DNA from: Bacteroidales bacterium
GTDB lineage: Bacteria > Bacteroidota > Bacteroidia > Bacteroidales > Dysgonomonadaceae
Assembly: GCA_012728155.1 (NCBI GenBank)
Contig: JAAYFR010000099.1
Location: forward strand, 1 to 33,772
Length of the DNA stretch: 33,772 nt
Reading direction: 5' to 3'
This document shows, one piece after another, positions 7,696-33,772 of the stretch; within the stretch, counting starts at the first letter, position 1, and every line of letters starts with the position of its first letter. The notes beneath the pieces are model-generated. The model searched no databases. It saw nothing but the letters and a program-made list of their open reading frames with translations, and was not told the DNA's origin. A program made the translations under genes and the position numbers.

Positions 7696-8403
7696 ATGAA
7701 AGCTGAAAGATTTGTCGTTCTCTTATTTGTTGTAATGACGCTCTTTATGTTGATTTCCACTGCAGATGGGCAGGCGCAGGAATATAAGTACGAAATGGGA
7801 GGTGCTGTGGGCAGCTCGTTTTATATGGGCGACGCAAACAGGAGCAGACTTTACCTTCACCCCGGATTGAGTGGGGGGATTCTCTTTCGATACAACCTCA
7901 ATTTTCTCTGGAGCATCAAAACCGGTCTCTCCGTCGCCACTGTTTCAGGAGAAAGTGAAGAGTCGGGCAATTCCTTCCCATTCGGCGGTCGAGCCTCTTT
8001 TCATCGTACGCTGGCAGAGTTGGGCACACAAGTGGAGTTTAATTTTTTCCCTTATAGTGACAGGTATGCATATCTCGGGACTAAAAACTATACTCCTTAT
8101 CTGTGTACAGGGGTGGGTGTCACCTATGCGTCGGGGGAAAAAACCTTTTTTGGTGCAAACATTCCTTTTGGAATAGGGTTTAAGTATAAATTAAAAAACC
8201 GGATGAATATCGGCATTGAGTTTTCGATGCGGAAATTGTTCCGTGATGATTTTGATGTTACTGAGAAAACCACCGGATGGAGTCTGGATAATCCTTTCAG
8301 CATTGAAAGCAGTCTCCTTAAGAACAGGGACTGGTACTCATTTACAATAATTTTCCTGACATGGGAATTTGCTACTCGTGAAGATCCTTGTCGTGGAAAT
8401 TAA
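7696..8403 (+). CDS. DUF6089-like outer membrane beta-barrel protein
   Basis: A 235-residue protein with a signal peptide (cleavage after about residue 27, near GQAQ). It then has alternating amphipathic strands typical of a small outer membrane barrel: YEMGGAVGSSFYMGD, the glycine-rich LHPGLSGGILFRYNL, and later YTPYLCTGVGVTYASG and NIPFGIGFKYKL. I recognise it as the DUF6089 type that commonly precedes uppS and bamA in Bacteroidota. It has no known biochemical role. It sits 19 bases upstream of uppS and is probably part of the envelope-assembly operon. Confidence 0.75.
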   Translation: MKAERFVVLLFVVMTLFMLISTADGQAQEYKYEMGGAVGSSFYMGDANRSRLYLHPGLSGGILFRYNLNFLWSIKTGLSVATVSGESEESGNSFPFGGRASFHRTLAELGTQVEFNFFPYSDRYAYLGTKNYTPYLCTGVGVTYASGEKTFFGANIPFGIGFKYKLKNRMNIGIEFSMRKLFRDDFDVTEKTTGWSLDNPFSIESSLLKNRDWYSFTIIFLTWEFATREDPCRGN

Positions 8404-8422
8404 CAATTCAGAGAGAAAGAAG

Positions 8423-9172
8423 ATGCCGTTGCTTGACAAGATAGAGAGAAATCGACTGCCCGCCCATATCGCCATTATTATGGACGGTAACGGTCGATGG
8501 GCGAAAAAGAGAGGGATGGAGCGAAGCGAAGGGCATAAAGAGGGGGTGAATGCAATAAAAAAAGTGGTGGAAGCTGCGTTGAAGGCATCGGTACAGTATC
8601 TGACACTTTACGCTTTCTCCACTGAAAACTGGGGTCGTCCTACTGAAGAGGTGCAGCAATTGATGGATTTGATGATATATGCCATTTCGAGGGAGACTCC
8701 CGATTTAAAAAAGAACGGTGTAAAGATTTGTTGTATCGGAGATATGGATCGCCTCCCGAAATATGCAGCTACTGCAATGGAGGAGTGTATTCAGGAAACC
8801 GCACAGGGAACGGGGCTTACTTTAGTGCTTGCGTTAAGTTATTCCTCAAAATGGGAACTTGTCGCCGCTGCCAGGAAGATAACCGCAGACGTTGTAAAAG
8901 GAGTTTTACAGGAAGGAGATATAAATGAAGAGACTTTTGCCAGTTATCTTACTACCTGCGATATTCCCGATCCCGATCTATTGATACGAACCGGTGGTGA
9001 ACAACGTATAAGTAATTTTTTGCTGTGGCAATTGGCCTATGCGGAATTTTATTTTACCGATACTTTCTGGCCTGATTTTGGTGAGAATGACTTGTATGCA
9101 GCAATCATCGACTATCAGGGGAGGGAGAGGAGATATGGAAAGACCAGTGATCAAATAGAGAGAGTTCAATAA
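8423..9172 (+). CDS. uppS: Undecaprenyl diphosphate synthase (cis-prenyltransferase)
   Basis: The 249-residue enzyme condenses isopentenyl units with farnesyl diphosphate to make the C55 carrier lipid used for peptidoglycan, LPS O-antigen and other surface glycans. Diagnostic blocks are IMDGNGRWAKKRG, with catalytic Asp21, and RTGGEQRISNFLLWQLAYAE near the C terminus, split from the last block FTDTFWPDF. The frame extends upstream to 8369 and overlaps the previous gene. ATG 8423 is chosen because the family starts just before the MDGNGRW block and a purine-rich stretch (gagagaaagaag) lies directly before it. Confidence 0.95.
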   Translation: MPLLDKIERNRLPAHIAIIMDGNGRWAKKRGMERSEGHKEGVNAIKKVVEAALKASVQYLTLYAFSTENWGRPTEEVQQLMDLMIYAISRETPDLKKNGVKICCIGDMDRLPKYAATAMEECIQETAQGTGLTLVLALSYSSKWELVAAARKITADVVKGVLQEGDINEETFASYLTTCDIPDPDLLIRTGGEQRISNFLLWQLAYAEFYFTDTFWPDFGENDLYAAIIDYQGRERRYGKTSDQIERVQ

Positions 9173-9220: not shown

Positions 9221-11911
9221 ATGTTGAAGAGAATATCTTATTTACTTCTGTTATTAATCATGTTGTCGCAGTTTGTGTTAAAGGCGCAAACCAATGACAC
9301 CATTCCTTCGTCGACTTCGGACGTACCTACCGTGAACTATACGGCTGCTTCAAAAAAATACTACATTGCCAATATCGATGTGACGGGTGTGGAAGGTACC
9401 ATGTACGAGGATCAGAAGTTTACCCTTGTAGGATTTTCTGGTTTGTCGAAGGGGCAACAGATCCAGATCCCCGGTGAAGAGCTATCCGATGTGGTCAAGA
9501 AATTTTGGAAACACGGTCTCTTTTCAGATATAAAAATATTGCAGACCAAGGTAGAGGGTGACAGTGTTTGGTTGGAGTTGCGTTTGACAGATCGGCCTCG
9601 GGTAAGTGATATCCGCTTCATTGGCATGAAAAAGGGGGAGCAAGAGGAGATAGAGAAGAAGTTAGGCGTTGTCAAAGGGAATCAAATTACACCTCCTCAG
9701 ATATCGCGTGCCGAGATAATTATAAAAAGTTTCTTTTCCGACAAAGGGTTTGGTGATGCGGAGGTGCGGATTATGCAGCGTCCTGATCCCACACAAAAAA
9801 ACCAGGTAGTACTGGAAATTGAAGTCGACAAGAAGGAGAAGTTGAAGGTAAACAGCATCAATCTAGTGGGGAACGAGGCGCTCTCCGACCGCAAATTGAA
9901 ATGGGCCATGAAGAAAACGAATGAGAAGGGGAAGTTGATCAACCTCTTCCGCGCCAAAAAATTTGTGGATGGCCTCTATAAGGAAGACAAGAATAAGCTC
10001 ATCGGGAAATATCATGATGAGGGTTATCGCGATGCGGAGATTATCCGCGATTCGGTGTACAAGCATGATGAAAAGACGGTCAGCATAGATATTGAACTGG
10101 AAGAGGGGCCGCTCTATCACATCCGCTCCATCAACTGGGTGGGAAATACTCATTATCCCTCTTCTCAATTGGGTTTACTCCTCAATATGTCTCCGGGAGA
10201 TATTTATAACCAGAAGAAATTACAGGAGAGGTTGATTTCCGATGAAGATGCGGCTGTCAACCTATACCAGAATAACGGCTATCTGTTTTCCAATATAGAT
10301 CCGGTGGAAATCAATATAGAGAATGATTCGGTTGATCTTGAACTGCGTGTGATTGAAGGACCGAAAGCCACTATTAAACGGGTAATTATCCAAGGGAATG
10401 ACCGTCTTTATGAAGATATCATCCGTCGTGAGTTGAGAACAAAACCGGGTACAGTATTCAGTAAGGAGGATCTCCTGCGATCGGTACGTGAAATTGCCCA
10501 GACAGGACATTTCGATCCCGAAGCCCTTTCGGCCGATATTGGAGGAGGAATCAGTCCCAATCCTGCGGATGGGACGGTGGACATCACCTATCCATTAACT
10601 TCAAAGGGGAATGACCAGATTGAGTTTTCTGCCGGATGGGGTGTGACCGGATTAGTGGGTAAGCTCAGTTTGCGGTTGAACAACTTTTCGCTACAAAACC
10701 TGTTGAATCCTTCCATGCATAAGGGGATCATTCCTCAGGGAGAGGGGCAAACATTGGTGTTGAGCGCACAGACCAACGGTCAGTATTATCAATCCTACCA
10801 GTTTCAGTTTGTGGAGCCTTGGTTTGGAGGGAAAAGGCCGAATCATCTCTCATTCAGCGCTTATTATTCGAGAATGACCGGGTTGAACGAGCGCTTTTAC
10901 AGTCAGAATATCTACTCCAATCCCTATATGTATGGATATCCCTATGGTGGTTATGGCGGTTATGGTTATGGTGGTTATGGCGGTTATGGTGGTTACGGTG
11001 GTGGCTATTATCAGGATGCGATGGAGTATAGCTACGACCCGAATCAGGTATTTAATATGGTGGGTGTCTCTTTGGGATATGGAAAGCGGCTTGAATGGCC
11101 GGATGACTACTTCCAGTTTATGGCAGAATTGGGTTATCAGCTCTACTCGTTAAAAAACTGGCGATACAATTACTTCCCATTTCAGACAGGGAATAGCAAT
11201 AGTGTGACACTGGGGTTGACGCTTTCGCGTATCTCCACCGACAGTCCTATCTATACGCGTACTGGCTCTCAATTCACGTTGAGTGTGAACGCAACTCCTC
11301 CTTTCTCGTTGTGGGACGGTAGGGATTACACCAAGATGGCAGATACCAATCCGGCAAAATATAGATGGAACGAATACCATAAATGGAAGTTGAAGATACG
11401 TACCTTCACACCGCTGACACCGCTGACCGTAAAGAGGACGCCGGTGATGGCTCCCCGGGTAGAGTTTGGAGTATTGGGGCATTATAACAAGAACAAGCTG
11501 ACTCCATTTGAGACATTTGATGTGGGGGGTGATGGAATGACCGGTTATACCACTACCTTCGCCACCGAGAATGTAGCATTACGTGGATATGAAAACAATT
11601 CGATTGCCACCAATGCGCGCATCTATACACGTCTCGGTCTGGAATTCCGTTATCCGTTTATCCTGGAGCCCAACTCCACTATCTACGGCATAGCATTCCT
11701 GGAAGCGGGAAATGCATGGGTAGAAGCAGAGATGAAAAATTTCAATCCATTCGACTTGAAACGATCGGCCGGTGTGGGTGTACGTATCTTCCTGCCGATG
11801 ATCGGGTTGATGGGGATCGACTGGGCATATGGCTTTGATACGGTATATGGCCGAGGTTCAAGGGAGAGGGGAGGAAGTCAGTTCCACTTTATTATCGGTC
11901 AGGAATTCTAA
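9221..11911 (+). CDS. bamA: Outer membrane protein assembly factor BamA
   Basis: An 896-residue Omp85 protein that folds and inserts beta-barrel proteins into the outer membrane. A signal peptide ends near LKAQ. About five POTRA domains follow (roughly residues 45-430, for example IKILQTKVEGDSVWLELRL and VRIMQRPDP), then a 16-strand-type barrel ending in FHFIIGQEF with the terminal aromatic residue. Near residues 570-600 there is an unusual Gly/Tyr-rich insertion, probably in an extracellular loop. The gene sits between uppS and two ompH genes, the standard Bacteroidota arrangement. Confidence 0.93.
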   Translation: MLKRISYLLLLLIMLSQFVLKAQTNDTIPSSTSDVPTVNYTAASKKYYIANIDVTGVEGTMYEDQKFTLVGFSGLSKGQQIQIPGEELSDVVKKFWKHGLFSDIKILQTKVEGDSVWLELRLTDRPRVSDIRFIGMKKGEQEEIEKKLGVVKGNQITPPQISRAEIIIKSFFSDKGFGDAEVRIMQRPDPTQKNQVVLEIEVDKKEKLKVNSINLVGNEALSDRKLKWAMKKTNEKGKLINLFRAKKFVDGLYKEDKNKLIGKYHDEGYRDAEIIRDSVYKHDEKTVSIDIELEEGPLYHIRSINWVGNTHYPSSQLGLLLNMSPGDIYNQKKLQERLISDEDAAVNLYQNNGYLFSNIDPVEINIENDSVDLELRVIEGPKATIKRVIIQGNDRLYEDIIRRELRTKPGTVFSKEDLLRSVREIAQTGHFDPEALSADIGGGISPNPADGTVDITYPLTSKGNDQIEFSAGWGVTGLVGKLSLRLNNFSLQNLLNPSMHKGIIPQGEGQTLVLSAQTNGQYYQSYQFQFVEPWFGGKRPNHLSFSAYYSRMTGLNERFYSQNIYSNPYMYGYPYGGYGGYGYGGYGGYGGYGGGYYQDAMEYSYDPNQVFNMVGVSLGYGKRLEWPDDYFQFMAELGYQLYSLKNWRYNYFPFQTGNSNSVTLGLTLSRISTDSPIYTRTGSQFTLSVNATPPFSLWDGRDYTKMADTNPAKYRWNEYHKWKLKIRTFTPLTPLTVKRTPVMAPRVEFGVLGHYNKNKLTPFETFDVGGDGMTGYTTTFATENVALRGYENNSIATNARIYTRLGLEFRYPFILEPNSTIYGIAFLEAGNAWVEAEMKNFNPFDLKRSAGVGVRIFLPMIGLMGIDWAYGFDTVYGRGSRERGGSQFHFIIGQEF
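10944..11010 (+). repeat. Gly/Tyr-coding tandem repeat within bamA
   Basis: In-frame short repeats built from GGT TAT GGC/T codons encode repeated GGY and GYGGY units (YGGYGGYGYGGYGGYGGYGG). Variation among synonymous third positions (GGT/GGC, TAT/TAC) shows the array is not a very recent perfect expansion. Confidence 0.85.
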
Positions 11912-12088
11912 TCTGATTAACATAATTTATTAAGATACCTCTAAACGTTTTATTGTTAAGACTGTCTTTATAAGAGCCGAAACTCTTAGATCCAGAGTCA
12001 AAACAGGAAGTCCGAGATAGGGAATTTGGGAGAGTTGATTGTTTCGGTGTTTCTTAATGCTGACTTTAAAAACAAAAACAGGAAAGAT
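11912..12088 (+). other. Gap between bamA and ompH with weak hairpin
   Basis: The 177 bases contain no convincing gene or consensus promoter. A 6-bp hairpin (TAAGAG at 11971-11976, loop CCGAAA, CTCTTA at 11983-11988) is visible, but it is not followed by a T-run. It could be an mRNA processing or stability element or chance. Confidence 0.3.
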
Positions 12089-12601
12089 ATGAAGAAGATT
12101 TTTTATTTTATAGCAATATTTATGACATTCGCTGTAGGGAACAGTTATGCTCAAAAGTATGCTCTGATCGACATGGAATATATTCTGAAGAGAATACCCG
12201 CTTATGAAAGTGCGAACAAGCAACTGGAATCGTTTTCGAAGCAGTGGCAAAGTGAAGTCGATAAAGAGGTGGAAACGGTAGATGCCATGTATAAAAAGTA
12301 CCAAGCTGATTTGCCGACGCTGCAAGGGAGTGAAAAGACCAATCGTGAAAATGAAATTGTGGCAAAAGAAAATGCTATCCAGGAACTGAGGAATAAATAT
12401 TTCGGATCGCAGGGCGCGTTATTTAAAAAACAGGAAGAGTTAATCATGCCGATACAGGATGATATCTATGAAGCGGTCAAAGTCATCTCCACTGAATCGG
12501 GTTATTCACTTGTGGTGGACAGGGCGTCGGCTACATCCATTATATTTGCTTCGCCCGGTATCGACATAAGCGATCAAGTGCTTTCAAGGTTAGGATATTA
12601 A
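12089..12601 (+). CDS. OmpH/Skp family periplasmic chaperone (first copy)
   Basis: A 170-residue protein with a signal peptide (cleaved near NSYAQ), then the Skp N-terminal strand KYALIDMEYILKRIPAYE and a long charged coiled coil. It ends with the strand block GYSLVVDRASATSIIFASP. Skp-type trimers hold unfolded outer membrane proteins for BamA, in agreement with the position downstream of bamA. The frame is open from 12026, but the ATG at 12089 directly precedes the signal peptide and follows GGAAAG. Confidence 0.85.
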   Translation: MKKIFYFIAIFMTFAVGNSYAQKYALIDMEYILKRIPAYESANKQLESFSKQWQSEVDKEVETVDAMYKKYQADLPTLQGSEKTNRENEIVAKENAIQELRNKYFGSQGALFKKQEELIMPIQDDIYEAVKVISTESGYSLVVDRASATSIIFASPGIDISDQVLSRLGY

Positions 12602-12664: not shown

Positions 12665-13171
12665 ATGTTAAAGAAATTATTGGTTTTTTTTATTGCTTTG
12701 GCTCCATTGACAGCCATGCCCCAAGGGGTGAAAATTGCCACAGTGAATGTGCAGGAGATTTTTGGTGCCATGCCTGAACTTTCCGGCATTGAGACCCAGC
12801 TTTCCAACAAACAGGAAGAGATCAGAAAAAATATCCAGGCACTGGAAACTGAATTCAACAAAAAATTGGAGGAGTTTGAAGCCAATCCGGCTGAGTCTGA
12901 CGCTGCAAGACAAGATCAGCAAAAACAAATAGCCCAGTTACAAGACAGGTATCAGACCTACATGCAAAATGGTCAGCAGGAGTTACAGCAATTACAACAG
13001 CAATTGTTAGAGCCTGTGAATAAAAAAATATTTGATGCAATCAAAGCGGTGGGAGACGAGAACAGCTACACCTTTGTGTACGATATCTCCTCATTACAAA
13101 CTCCCATTGTTTATTTGACTCCTTCTGCCGTGGATGTTACGCCGCAGGTAAAAACAAAACTGGGCATTTAA
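12665..13171 (+). CDS. OmpH/Skp family periplasmic chaperone (second copy)
   Basis: A 168-residue paralogue of the preceding gene. It has a short signal peptide (LAPLTAMPQ), the N-terminal strand VKIATVNVQEIFGAMPE, a Gln/Glu-rich coiled coil (about residues 40-120) and the closing strand block YTFVYDISSLQTPIVYLTP. It likely acts as a holdase for outer membrane proteins with its neighbour. It ends the plus-strand block and is followed by a strong hairpin terminator. In many relatives murI follows here; it does not in this window. Confidence 0.85.
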   Translation: MLKKLLVFFIALAPLTAMPQGVKIATVNVQEIFGAMPELSGIETQLSNKQEEIRKNIQALETEFNKKLEEFEANPAESDAARQDQQKQIAQLQDRYQTYMQNGQQELQQLQQQLLEPVNKKIFDAIKAVGDENSYTFVYDISSLQTPIVYLTPSAVDVTPQVKTKLGI

Positions 13172-29707: not shown

Positions 29708-30859
29708 TCACATTGGTTGAATTCTTCTATAGGCCTCTTTCAGCTTTTCGACCGACGAGCCAAGGGAAATCCGGATGAACCGGTTCCCATTATTTCCGAA
29801 GATGGCTCCCGGAGTGATAAATACCCTCCTATTGTAAAGTATGTCATCGACAAATGTTTTGCTGTCGGGTGCCTCATCGGGAAGTTTTCCCCATACGAAA
29901 AGTCCCACCTGGCGCTTATCGTAGCTGCAATGCAGCAGGTCCATGATTTTTTCCGCCCATTGGCGGCGTTCGGCATATATCTTATTCATATTGGCATGCC
30001 ATTCGTCGCTGTTGGACAATGCGGCGATAGTGGCCAACTGTACCGGTTTGAATTGTCCGCTATCGATATTACTTTTGGCCTTGACTACCCATTTTACAGA
30101 TTGTGGGTTGGAGGCCAACATTCCCATACGCCATCCCGACATATTATGAGATTTGCTTAATGAGTTCAGTTCGATACAGATATCTTTGGCACTCGGCACA
30201 GAGAGGATACTCATTGGCTTGTCGTTCAGGATAAAACTATAAGGGTTATCGTGGCAGATAAGGATCTCGTGGCGTTTGCCAAAATCTACCAGCTTTTCGA
30301 AGAGTTCCATCGAAGCATTGGCGCCGGTAGGCATGTTGGGATAATTGACCCACATCAGTTTCACCTTCGATAGATCCATCTTCTCCAATGCTTCGAAATC
30401 GGGATTCCAGTTATTCTCTTCCCGCAAGTCGTAGGGTATTACGTTTGCTCTCAGCAGCTTCGAAACGGAGCTATAAGTGGGGTAACCCGGATCGGGAACC
30501 AAAACGGCATCGCCGAAATTGAGGAAAGCCATTGAGATGTGCAGCACTCCCTCTTTTGAACCGATCAGCGGTAACACCTCATCTTCCGCTAATTCCACTT
30601 GGTATATTCTTTTGTACCACTGTGCAAACGCTCTTCTCAGCTCGGGAATACCGGTATAGGGCTGATAAGCATGCGTATCAGGGCGCTGGGCAGTTTCACA
30701 CAGTGTATGGATGGTCTCTTCCGACGGCATCCGGTCGGGAGCACCCACGCCGAGACTGATCACATCTTTCCCTTCGGCATTCATACGGGCCACTTCCGCT
30801 AACTTCACCGAAAAATAGTATTCGGAGATCGATTTTATATGTTCAGCAGGTTCTATCAT
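29708..30859 (-). CDS. PLP-dependent aromatic/aspartate-type aminotransferase
   Basis: A 383-residue fold-type I aminotransferase. Visible residues are the PLP-binding Lys236 (SLSKSHNMSGWRMG), Asp204 and Tyr207 (CHDNPYSF), NYPNMPTGA with the substrate-site Asn, and the C-terminal carboxylate-binding Arg in NRFIRISLG. Placed between pheA and the DAHP synthase, it most likely transaminates phenylpyruvate and 4-hydroxyphenylpyruvate, the last step to Phe and Tyr, but substrate specificity is inferred from context. The gap to pheA is filled by a heptamer repeat array. Confidence 0.88.
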   Translation of the reverse strand: MIEPAEHIKSISEYYFSVKLAEVARMNAEGKDVISLGVGAPDRMPSEETIHTLCETAQRPDTHAYQPYTGIPELRRAFAQWYKRIYQVELAEDEVLPLIGSKEGVLHISMAFLNFGDAVLVPDPGYPTYSSVSKLLRANVIPYDLREENNWNPDFEALEKMDLSKVKLMWVNYPNMPTGANASMELFEKLVDFGKRHEILICHDNPYSFILNDKPMSILSVPSAKDICIELNSLSKSHNMSGWRMGMLASNPQSVKWVVKAKSNIDSGQFKPVQLATIAALSNSDEWHANMNKIYAERRQWAEKIMDLLHCSYDKRQVGLFVWGKLPDEAPDSKTFVDDILYNRRVFITPGAIFGNNGNRFIRISLGSSVEKLKEAYRRIQPM

Positions 30860-30875
30860 ATTTTTAAATTGCTAT

Positions 30876-30952
30876 TATCACTTACCATTTACCACTTACC
30901 ATTTACCATTTACCACTTATCATTTATCACTTACCACTAACCATTTATCAAT
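30876..30952. repeat. Degenerate 7-bp tandem repeat, 11 units
   Basis: Eleven consecutive heptamers read on the plus strand: mostly TACCATT, TACCACT, TATCATT and TATCACT, with end units AACCATT and TATCAAT. The array ends in the stop codon of pheA and fills most of the 92-base gap between pheA and the aminotransferase gene. On the transcribed strand it reads as repeated AATGGTA/AGTGGTA. No hairpin is formed. Confidence 0.85.
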
Positions 30953-31821
30953 TAGACCATTATCCTTAATTCTCCATTCTCAAATCCATGCTTCTCCTCC
31001 CTATATTCGCCCAAAATTTTCAGATTGCTGATCAGCGGCATGATGGCGTCAACCGACTGTCGGTATCGATGATAATCGGTGAAGGTGAGATCAATATAGA
31101 ACTGATATTCCCACTCTCTTCCGATAATGGGAAGCGACTGGATACGGGTGAGGTTGATATTATAGAACGACAATACCGAGAGTACCTGTGAGAGGCTCCC
31201 TTCGTTATGTGGCAGTACAAAGACCAGCGACGATTTATTGATATGGTTTTCCTTCTGCACTTCACGCAGCATATCGCCTTGTGCCATGATGAGGAAACGG
31301 GTAAAGTTTCTTTTGTTTGTCTCAATACCGTGGGCAAGCACTTCTAACCCATATTTCTCGGCAGCTAACTCACTACAGATGGCGGCGGCTGATTCCAGCT
31401 GTTTGTCTCGGATATCGCGTGCTGCCAAGGCGGTATCTTCGTGTTCTACAATTTTCACACCCGGCAAAGCATCGAGGAAAGCTTCGCATTGCATCAAAGC
31501 GATAGGATGCGACATCACCTCTCTGATCTTTTCTATGGAGTTGCCGGGAAGTACCGCCAACGAATGCGATATACGCAATTTATGTTCTCCGGCAATCTGC
31601 AGACTGCTCATCTTTAAAAGGTCGTGGTTCTGCAACAGACTTCCGGCAATGGTATTCTCAATGGCCATCATGCCGATCAAATCAGGATCTTTCCTTGTCT
31701 CAGCGAAGATATCACGGAAAGTACTGCATGGAACTATTTCCAACTCCTCATCACTAAAATATTCGCGGGCTGCAATCTCGTGGAATGAGCCTTCCCCTCC
31801 CTGAATGGCTATTCTTTTCAT
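30952..31821 (-). CDS. pheA: Prephenate dehydratase
   Basis: A 289-residue monofunctional dehydratase converting prephenate to phenylpyruvate for Phe synthesis. The catalytic domain begins with IAIQGGEGSFHEIAAREYF and contains AIENTIAGSL and the TRF motif (residues 174-176). A C-terminal ACT domain (about 190-270, GSLSQVLSVLSFYNINLTRIQSLP) suggests allosteric inhibition by Phe. The last ~15 residues (after LGEY) look like an extension made by reading into non-conserved sequence next to the heptamer array. It is the first structural gene behind a leader peptide and terminator, indicating attenuation control. Confidence 0.93.
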   Translation of the reverse strand: MKRIAIQGGEGSFHEIAAREYFSDEELEIVPCSTFRDIFAETRKDPDLIGMMAIENTIAGSLLQNHDLLKMSSLQIAGEHKLRISHSLAVLPGNSIEKIREVMSHPIALMQCEAFLDALPGVKIVEHEDTALAARDIRDKQLESAAAICSELAAEKYGLEVLAHGIETNKRNFTRFLIMAQGDMLREVQKENHINKSSLVFVLPHNEGSLSQVLSVLSFYNINLTRIQSLPIIGREWEYQFYIDLTFTDYHRYRQSVDAIMPLISNLKILGEYREEKHGFENGELRIMV

Positions 31822-31829
31822 CTGTTCAA

Positions 31830-31919
31830 CTATTTAAATGAAAAAAGTCCCACCGTGTAATCGGCAGGACTTTTTATTATTTTATGATATGACTTTTTTA
31901 ATTTCTTCTCATTTTGCAT
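31830..31919 (-). other. Possible second small ORF spanning the attenuator
   Basis: ATG at 31919 opens 29 codons ending at TAG 31830, reading MQNEKKLKKSYHKIIKSPA and then DYTVGLFSFK. It starts after the antiterminator segment and runs through the whole terminator. It may be a chance frame in an untranslated leader. If translated, ribosomes would disturb the terminator. Confidence 0.2.
31842..31875 (-). terminator. Attenuator terminator hairpin before pheA
   Basis: On the minus strand AAAAAGTCCTGCCG (31875-31862) pairs with CGGTGGGACTTTTT (31855-31842) in a continuous 14-bp stem including two G-T wobbles, with loop ATTACA. It ends in a run of six T. It lies 20 bases before the pheA start and after the leader peptide, so it would stop transcription before the operon unless an alternative fold prevents it. 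Confidence 0.88.
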
Positions 31920-31921
31920 AT

Positions 31922-31932
31922 AAAATCCTGCC
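31922..31932 (-). promoter_or_regulatory. Antiterminator arm of the aromatic operon attenuator
   Basis: Minus strand GGCAGGATTTT starts two bases after the leader peptide stop codon. It can pair over 11 bases (one G-T) with AAAGTCCTGCC (31873-31863), which is most of the left arm of the terminator. The two folds are mutually exclusive. A ribosome on the leader stop codon would cover this arm, while one stalled on the Phe/Tyr codons would leave it free. Confidence 0.7.
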
Positions 31933-31933
31933 T

Positions 31934-31990
31934 TTACCTACTAAAGTAAAAGTAAAACCAGAAAGCAAATGCAAAAATAGAACCAATCAT
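31934..31990 (-). CDS. Aromatic-rich leader peptide of the pheA operon
   Basis: An 18-codon ORF on the minus strand, ATG at 31990 and TAA at 31936-31934, reading MIGSIFAFAFWFYFYFSR. Half of its residues are aromatic: six Phe (five TTT, one TTC), two Tyr (TAC) and one Trp (TGG), concentrated in the last two thirds. It lies between a promoter and a strong terminator ahead of pheA, so translation speed through these codons would report charged tRNA-Phe and tRNA-Tyr levels. There is no clear Shine-Dalgarno site; the region before the ATG is A/T-rich, as is usual for this phylum. The peptide itself probably has no function. Confidence 0.8.
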   Translation of the reverse strand: MIGSIFAFAFWFYFYFSR

Positions 31991-32006
31991 TGTAATTTAT
32001 ATTATG

Positions 32007-32028
32007 GATATGACACGTAAATCATATC
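32007..32028. repeat. Inverted repeat near the pheA-operon transcription start
   Basis: GATATGA (32007-32013) and TCATATC (32022-32028) are perfect 7-bp arms around an 8-base loop. They lie about 5-27 bases downstream of the predicted start point. This could be an operator or a 5' hairpin of the leader RNA. The arm sequence GTCATATC occurs again on the transcribed strand at 31893-31886, just before the terminator. Confidence 0.45.
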
Positions 32029-32039
32029 GATGATGAGTG

Positions 32040-32069
32040 CAAAAGTACTACTTTTTTCTTTTCAACAAA
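32040..32069 (-). promoter_or_regulatory. Promoter of the aromatic amino acid operon
   Basis: Minus strand TTTG (32069-32066), an 18-base spacer, then TACTTTTG (32047-32040) match the Bacteroidota -33/-7 pattern. Transcription would start near 32033, giving a leader RNA of about 210 bases before pheA that contains the leader peptide, the antiterminator arm and the terminator. Confidence 0.65.
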
Positions 32070-32159
32070 CAAAATGGAGGAAAAATGTGATAAATAATAT
32101 AAAAAAGGAGGATTTAATCATGATAAAGCGGGTGGGTGCTTATGGTTTTTATATAATAA

Positions 32160-32193
32160 TTGGACAGAGGTAACAAAAATATTTTTATATTTG
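32160..32193 (+). promoter_or_regulatory. Promoter of the peptide transporter gene
   Basis: TTG (32160-32162), a 23-base spacer, then TATATTTG (32186-32193) fit the -33/-7 pattern. The 5' UTR would be about 43 bases. Together with the divergent aromatic leader this accounts for the 422-base gap 31822-32243. Confidence 0.55.
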
Positions 32194-32243
32194 CAAATTA
32201 AAACCGAAGAGAGTAATATTTACAATCATAAACAAATCAGTCA

Positions 32244-33772
32244 ATGTTCAAAAATCATCCTAAAGGGTTGCTCGCCGCCTCACTGGCGAATATGGGAGAG
32301 CGTTTTGGTTTTTATACCGTGATGGCTATCCTTTCACTTTTCTTAATGACAAAGTTCGGCTTAAATGAGACAAGCACTGGAATTATCTACTCCATCTTTT
32401 ATGCTTCCATCTATCTGCTGGCGTTGGTAGGTGGTTTGCTTGCCGACAAAACTCGAAATTATAAAGGCATCATATTGATCGGTCTGCTTTTGATGACATT
32501 GGGATATGTGATTATCTCGATACCTACTGCAACGCCTGTGCCACAGGATAAATTCGGCATTTTGCTGGCTTTAAGTTGTTTTGGACTTCTTACCATTGCA
32601 TTTGGAAATGGGATGTTCAAAGGTAATCTGCAAGCACTGGTCGGCCAGATGTATGATAATCCGCAGTACGAAAAAATGCGCGATTCCGGGTTCCAGTTGT
32701 TCTATATGTTTATTAATGTGGGTGCCATCTTCGCTCCTTTTCTTGCTGTTGGCGTAAGAAATTGGTGGGTAGAGAAGAATGGTTATCTATATAATGCCGA
32801 TCTCCCTTCCCTTGCCCACCAATATCTGGGCAACACCATTACTCCTGAAGGAACGGCAAGGTTACAAAATCTGGCATCGGAAGCTGGATTTGCCGGTACC
32901 GACATTGCCACTTTCAGCAGTGGTTATTTGAATGTCTTCACTACCGGATTTCATTACGCTTTTGCGATAGCTATTGTGGCGATGATTATCTCATTGCTCA
33001 TCTATGTTTTCAATAAGAATGGATTCCCCGATCCAGCTGGCAAGTACATTGACAAGAGTGGCAATGCTGCTGTGGAAGAGATGGATATCAAAGAGGTAAA
33101 GCAGCGTCTTTATGCTCTGTTTGCCGTTTTTGCGGTCGTTATTTTCTTCTGGTTCTCCTTCCATCAAAATGGATTGACCCTTACCTATTTTGCCAAGGAC
33201 TATACCGATTTGAACCAGATAAAGGTCAACTTGGGATTTGTCACTTTACAGGGAGCCGAAATATTCCAGTCGATCAACCCTTTCTTTGTGGTGTTCCTTA
33301 CTCCTATTATCGTGGGATTTTTCGGATGGCTCAGGAGCAAAGGGAAAGAACCGTCCACACCCCGCAAGATAGCGATTGGTATGGGTATCGCGGCAATGGC
33401 TTATGTGGTCATGGCAATAGGGTCGATCGGACTTCCCCTCAAGTCGGAAGTGGATGCGATGGGTGGATTGGCCGATTCGGCACGTGTAACTCCCTGGCTA
33501 TTGATTGGCACCTATTTTATCCTTACCGTAGCCGAGCTGTTTATCAGTCCGCTGGGTATCTCATTTGTGTCGAAAGTGGATCCTCCCAAATTTCAGGGTA
33601 TCATGCAGGGTGCCTGGTTAGGAGCTACAGCAGTGGGTAACAGCCTATTGTTTATCGGCGCCATCTTCTACACCAATATGTCGATGGTTACCACATGGAT
33701 GCTATTCGTAACGGCATGTCTCATCTCCATGTTCACCATGCTGGCAATGATCAAATGGCTGGAAAGGGTTGC
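32244..33772 (+). CDS. POT/PTR2-family proton-coupled peptide transporter (partial)
   Basis: ATG at 32244 opens a frame that continues past the window end (509 complete codons visible). It encodes a polytopic membrane protein of the proton-dependent oligopeptide transporter family. Family features are the N-terminal SLANMGERFGFYT block, the GGLLADK loop between membrane segments 2 and 3, and FYMFINVGAIFAPF, matching the PTR2 signature FYxxINxG. Near the C-terminal part visible here LISPLG-type sequence (AELFISPLGISF) is also typical. It probably imports di- or tripeptides. In the ExxER proton-coupling motif the first Glu is replaced: the sequence is N16-M-G-E19-R20. Confidence 0.92.
   Translation, partial: MFKNHPKGLLAASLANMGERFGFYTVMAILSLFLMTKFGLNETSTGIIYSIFYASIYLLALVGGLLADKTRNYKGIILIGLLLMTLGYVIISIPTATPVPQDKFGILLALSCFGLLTIAFGNGMFKGNLQALVGQMYDNPQYEKMRDSGFQLFYMFINVGAIFAPFLAVGVRNWWVEKNGYLYNADLPSLAHQYLGNTITPEGTARLQNLASEAGFAGTDIATFSSGYLNVFTTGFHYAFAIAIVAMIISLLIYVFNKNGFPDPAGKYIDKSGNAAVEEMDIKEVKQRLYALFAVFAVVIFFWFSFHQNGLTLTYFAKDYTDLNQIKVNLGFVTLQGAEIFQSINPFFVVFLTPIIVGFFGWLRSKGKEPSTPRKIAIGMGIAAMAYVVMAIGSIGLPLKSEVDAMGGLADSARVTPWLLIGTYFILTVAELFISPLGISFVSKVDPPKFQGIMQGAWLGATAVGNSLLFIGAIFYTNMSMVTTWMLFVTACLISMFTMLAMIKWLERV

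Follow-up and report, generated by a model that had tools for sequence, protein, structure and literature searches.

A disordered glycine/tyrosine-rich extracellular loop of BamA in Dysgonomonadaceae varies in length while keeping its composition

The bamA locus

The window, i.e. the whole 33,772-nucleotide stretch of DNA analysed here, belongs to the genome of a Proteiniphilum-type member of the Dysgonomonadaceae and carries bamA at 9221..11911 (+). This gene is present as a single copy in the genome and encodes an 896-aa Omp85 protein with POTRA repeats (Pfam 9e-45, four stretches) and a C-terminal barrel. The product matched BamA of PDB entries 9hj3, 9hiv and 9hjm (complexes of B. thetaiotaomicron and P. 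gingivalis) over essentially the full length. Searching with an AF2 model of the protein, Foldseek returned Bacteroidota BamA structures (9hiv, 9n2f, 9n2d and 9n2e) as the best matches, with TMt values of 0.81 for 9hiv_A and 0.91 for 9hjm_A. The L6 VRGF/Y motif is present in its Bacteroidota form, L787-R-G-Y790 (11579..11590, +), which is invariant in a 50-sequence alignment and identical to the LRGY motif of F. johnsoniae BamA (PMC12611786).

Upstream of bamA lie a gene for a DUF6089 outer-membrane protein (7696..8403, +; PF19573, 1.3e-17) and uppS, encoding undecaprenyl diphosphate synthase (8369..9172, +; PF01255, 4e-85). The DUF6089 gene holds the position of porG, which is located at the bamA locus in F. 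johnsoniae (PMC12611786). Downstream, there are two genes for OmpH/Skp chaperones (12026..12601, +, and 12665..13171, +; PF03938, 2.3e-37 and 7.8e-33, respectively).

A Gly/Tyr tract within extracellular loop 3

A reading of the sequence alone had proposed a Gly/Tyr repeat within the BamA barrel at 10934-11018. The repeat is real: these positions are in frame with bamA and correspond to residues 572-600. The quoted motif NPYMYG begins slightly before this stretch, at residue 567 (base 10919), and the last residue of GGGYYQ is 598. Based on a composition count, the Gly/Tyr core spans residues 567-598 (10919..11014, +; NPYMYGYPYGG...GGYYQ) and reads NPYMYGYPYGGYGGYGYGGYGGYGGYGGGYYQ. It contains 12 Tyr and 15 Gly, together 27 of 32 residues, against a Tyr + Gly background of 0.133 for BamA outside the tract (binomial p ~2e-19, or ~2e-16 after counting windows). 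Within the tract, there is a perfect 24-bp in-frame tandem duplication (10943..10990, +; TRF score 96) that exceeds the repeats found in synonymous-codon shuffles of the same peptide (p = 0.015). The Gly codons of the tract are mostly GGT (11/15, compared with 23/72 elsewhere in bamA; p = 0.007). A DNA pattern search of the 2.98 Mb genome found no second occurrence of the YGGYGGYG coding motif.

Employing the AF2 model and alignment to 9hj3, we assigned the tract to extracellular loop 3 (EL3), residues 554-605 (10880..11035, +). These 52 residues include 16 Tyr, 16 Gly and 3 Asn, so that enrichment of Asn is weak. In the model (built from the 50-sequence alignment; mean pLDDT 76, pTM 0.53), pLDDT was below 50 over residues 558-603, between barrel strands 5 (542-555) and 6 (605-623), and fell to 25-35 in blocks across 561-600, which predicts disorder. 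The solved relatives agree. Tyr accounts for 13 of the 38 residues of EL3 in B. thetaiotaomicron BamA and for 12 of 39 in P. gingivalis BamA; the loop shows no cryo-EM density in either BAM complex and probably projects inside a dome of surface lipoproteins, the interior of which is faced by two putative prolyl-isomerase active sites (PMC12578637). Disorder and placement of EL3 are thus well supported, and the earlier suggestion of a flexible, aromatic-rich extracellular loop holds: the segment is neither periplasmic nor a barrel strand, nor is its length invariant (see below).

The loop type itself is already known. Across 861 aligned BLASTP hits, Tyr, Gly and Asn are enriched in EL3 (PMC12578637, 2025), and the same report was the only one recovered by our literature search for BamA loops rich in tyrosine in Bacteroid- organisms. 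The loop of B. thetaiotaomicron (9hiv, 9hj3) likewise connects beta5 and beta6, is enriched in Gly and Asn and is disordered; the loop of the window is longer (by our boundaries), nearly regular as (GGY)n, poorer in Asn and marked by the recent 24-bp duplication. In the P. gingivalis loop (9hjm), spacing is by Asn and Tyr rather than Gly and Tyr. F. johnsoniae BamA (9n2d-f), a Bacteroidota BamA with BamG and BamH as partners, is listed with extended loops T1, L5 and L6, not EL3 (PMC12611786). E. coli BamA shares the Omp85 barrel and POTRA domains but is without a Tyr-rich EL3 (PMC12578637). The proposal that the segment has no counterpart in classical BamA therefore stands relative to E. coli, but not for this clade, of which the loop is typical; the window carries a long (GGY)n-type member.

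The root of the loop touches on toxin sensitivity. An Asp at the start of eL3 sets sensitivity to bacteroidetocin A in Bacteroidales, and its loss leads to resistance (PMC8546649). By alignment to 9hj3 (TDISS/TGLNE), the equivalent residue in the window is Gly554 (10880..10882, +), and Gly was found in all genus loops read. By this correlation, the genus is predicted to be insensitive to bacteroidetocin A, and the base of EL3 would, by analogy, be a toxin-relevant site.

Length varies while composition is kept

EL3 ranged from 42 to 66 residues (median 55) in the 35 Proteiniphilum-type genomes of the genus and from 32 to 67 residues in 42 loops from other genera of Dysgonomonadaceae; length therefore varies between species, as had been anticipated. 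Close congeneric species pairs (identity outside EL3 of 90% or more) were compared for EL3 length and for indels over the remainder of the compared protein. EL3 length differed in 106 of the 117 pairs, and only 13 showed any indel elsewhere. EL3 is the indel hotspot of bamA. Composition behaved differently from length: 36/36 genus loops and 41/42 loops from the rest of the family passed a test for aromatic-rich, low-charge sequence.

At the DNA level, the longest exact repeat exceeded that of synonymous shuffles in 13 of the 35 genus loops but not in the other 22. Such repeats indicate that in-frame duplication is active. Genus-wide, codon use in the loop was close to that in the rest of BamA (GGT, 34% vs 31%; TAT, 51% vs 55%). 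Since the Gly codons of the loop are used as in the rest of the protein, drift of DNA repeats alone does not explain the composition. We infer that duplication is the source of length variation and that selection at the protein level maintains the composition.

In three genus assemblies, an ambiguous base, a contig end and a gap, respectively, fell within the bamA repeat (L018, L032 and L035). Since short-read assemblies break at this repeat, loop lengths taken from deposited sequences may be unreliable and add some noise.

The aromatic loop marks one clade of Bacteroidales

Beyond the family, 29 of 75 loops sampled at the order level were aromatic-rich and 46 were not, and the test was passed by 1/26 loops from other orders of the class and 1/8 from other classes, all loci having been picked non-randomly, by hit strength and by hand. 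Most sampled sequences from the other orders of the class had an EL3 of about 10 residues. In a barrel tree built with EL3 removed, 49 of the 50 aromatic loops fell in one clade of 54 sequences (SH-aLRT 99, quick method), the non-aromatic members being three side-branch sequences and two endosymbionts. Aromatic EL3 thus marks one Bacteroidales clade rather than the whole phylum, and within that clade the aromatic, low-charge composition is maintained over about 20 family-level groups. One candidate for the aromatic set, L112, was rejected: its EL3 has 57 residues but is charged and non-aromatic, unlike every other sampled loop. The longest EL3 found, 77 residues with repeated SPYGYGGY units, occurs in a distant Bacteroidales family (L136, genome G552).

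The sole loop of the aromatic set outside the clade, from another order (L044), is of a Gly/Met type, GGMGMGGMMGMGGMGMGMGM. Gly/Met also replaces Gly/Tyr in one member of the window's own family (L079) and in one of the family of Azobacteroides (L288). Replacement of Tyr by Met with Gly retained argues for general stickiness rather than Tyr-specific chemistry. With Met substituting for Tyr in three lineages, Tyr-specific roles (di-tyrosine, phosphorylation or glycosylation) are less likely.

Dome partners in the genome of the window

A Bacteroidaceae protein recovered with PF03349 proved to be BamG; verified as BtBamG against 9hiv_F, 9hjm_F and 9n2d_B, it served as the BamG query. With it, we identified BamG in the genome of the window at C372:4215-5522 (genome G000; 36% identity, E 1.4e-61) and in 57 of the 61 genomes tested, including short-EL3 Bacteroidales. 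Two other PF03349 matches were ruled out as BamG: the one in the genome of the window is a 520-aa FadL-like protein without a PDB match, and one of the weak ~390-aa matches, from a relative, was identified as PorV. The genome of the window also encodes an FKBP-type lipoprotein (L279:1486-2049, -), adjoining a gene resembling glycyl-tRNA synthetase. Its best PDB matches were the BAM isomerases of 9hj3 and 9hjm (E 1.8e-12), and on this sequence similarity it is a candidate dome subunit. PF17116 (T9SS plug domain), our guess for BamH, matched nothing in the genome or in the controls and was uninformative.

Loss of EL3 and BamG in Azobacteroides

Two genomes with EL3 absent or almost absent were found in the family of genome G571. 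Among its 32 measurable loops, 30 had an EL3 of 21-45 residues, whereas EL3 was reduced to 0 residues in G571 and to 4 residues (DSSK) in G633 (L314 and L319). These two genomes measure 1.2 and 1.0 Mb, are each ~99% complete and encode bamA as an uninterrupted reading frame (847 and 838 codons, respectively). They represent Ca. Azobacteroides pseudotrichonymphae CfPt1-2 and ProJPt-1, which live as obligate intracellular symbionts in a protist of the termite gut (PMC5478533). Both Azobacteroides BamA sequences form long branches; when either was omitted, the other nested within a loop-bearing genus (smallest starred set, 12 rows). Such nesting among loop-bearing relatives indicates that EL3 was lost in Azobacteroides, probably in a single event.

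BamG was not found in G571 or G633, whereas it was found in 57 of the 59 other genomes tested, and neither Azobacteroides genome had a PF03349 match. The two further genomes in which the BamG search gave no hit, G628 (92% complete, 7% contaminated) and G661 (72% complete), bear the loop. The result in Azobacteroides agrees with a report that no endosymbiont Bacteroidota has BamG (PMC12578637). Outside the clade, BamG-bearing Bacteroidales have a short EL3, so that a BAM with BamG can do without the aromatic loop. EL3 went where BamG went, yet BamG does not need EL3.

Possible functions of EL3

Disordered proteins built of stickers and spacers combine aromatic stickers with Gly spacers and low charge. 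EL3, one loop of about 50 residues anchored in the membrane, resembles them in composition only. The reading that we favour, with somewhat less than even confidence, is that EL3 is a disordered sticky brush, a promiscuous weak binder within the extracellular folding chamber. A nearly uncharged chain with aromatics spaced by Gly would rise from the barrel rim into the space under the dome, tyrosines (in some relatives methionines) acting as stickers and glycines as spacers. The brush would keep a transient grip on nascent outer-membrane proteins and surface lipoproteins where these are extended or exposed, as the dome prolyl isomerases and BamA finish their assembly. Short in-frame duplications would alter its length, and selection on the protein would keep its composition. 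We infer such a chaperone-like role, and the binding that it entails, from several observations: EL3 is disordered and placed under the dome; the dome parts BamG and the FKBP-type lipoprotein are encoded in the same genome; composition is constant while length varies; Met can take the place of Tyr with Gly retained; and EL3 is gone in the two Azobacteroides genomes without BamG but kept in all family relatives with a readable loop. The loss in Azobacteroides, however, probably represents one event amid massive gene loss and relaxed selection, and a loop used for something else would likewise disappear under relaxed selection in an intracellular habitat. A fuller version, in which a membrane-anchored sticker-and-spacer chaperone arose once in Bacteroidales and again with Met, was tuned in length by duplication and was lost together with the BamG-containing dome, appears rather unlikely to hold in all its parts; the dome status of Azobacteroides in this version rests on BamG as the subunit traced.

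The main rival is a tolerated low-complexity linker: BamA would accept in-frame repeat expansion at EL3, and the loop would have no specific role other than not to interfere. The excess of length changes over indels elsewhere (106 versus 13 of the close pairs), the DNA repeats beyond synonymous shuffles in 13/35 genus loops, the short EL3 in most of the phylum sample and its loss in endosymbionts would all fit such a linker. The maintenance of an aromatic, low-charge composition over the ~20 family-level groups does not, nor do the 22 loops that keep this composition in spite of lacking strong DNA repeats, nor does the ordinary codon use of the genus loops; we consider the linker possible but doubtful. 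Length that is hypervariable between species would also be expected of an exposed site evolving by slippage under attack by phage, bacteriocins or antibodies, as the sequence-only reading had suggested, and resistance to bacteroidetocin does map to the first eL3 residue in Bacteroidales (PMC8546649). A Gly-Tyr brush might in addition shield the mouth of the barrel. However, the loop is placed inside the lipoprotein dome in the published model (PMC12578637), and its sequence remains low-complexity and conserved in composition instead of diversifying. Moreover, Proteiniphilum-type genomes of environmental origin carry EL3, and many of these are metagenome bins whose record titles give no hint of a vertebrate host; the ProJPt-1 Azobacteroides, which has lost EL3, is infected by a phage (PMC5478533). 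Third in our ranking, this explanation is improbable. Still less credit is due to a docking strap that would anchor the dome by binding one of its lipoproteins at a fixed site. EL3 does rise from the barrel under the dome, and loop L5 of F. johnsoniae BamA binds the subunit BamM (PMC12611786). That EL3 of B. thetaiotaomicron and of P. gingivalis gave no density in the solved complexes (PMC12578637) speaks against such a strap and equally against the contact with partner lipoproteins proposed earlier; lengths of 21 to 77 residues and replacement of Tyr by Met are hard to fit with a fixed site.

As far as the literature searched shows, the indel hotspot, the limit to one clade, the Met variants and the co-loss with BamG are new. 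The function of EL3 was left open in the structural report (PMC12578637); the clade boundary, the Tyr-to-Met swaps and a natural deletion coinciding with loss of BamG now provide handles on it, as does a length that is free while composition is kept. The choice between a sticky brush and a tolerated linker is directly testable in a genetically tractable gut commensal.

Other features of the window

About 1.5 kb of the window (31822-33325) contains neither a tRNA or Rfam match nor an ORF reaching 100 codons. Adjacent to it, the prephenate dehydratase gene (30952-31821, -) is separated by a 92-bp gap from an aminotransferase gene (29708-30859, -). This gap holds an imperfect array of the heptamer TTACCAT (30875-30954; ~9-10 copies, with a 21-bp higher-order unit). 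The array is directly upstream of the aminotransferase start and is possibly a variable repeat affecting expression.
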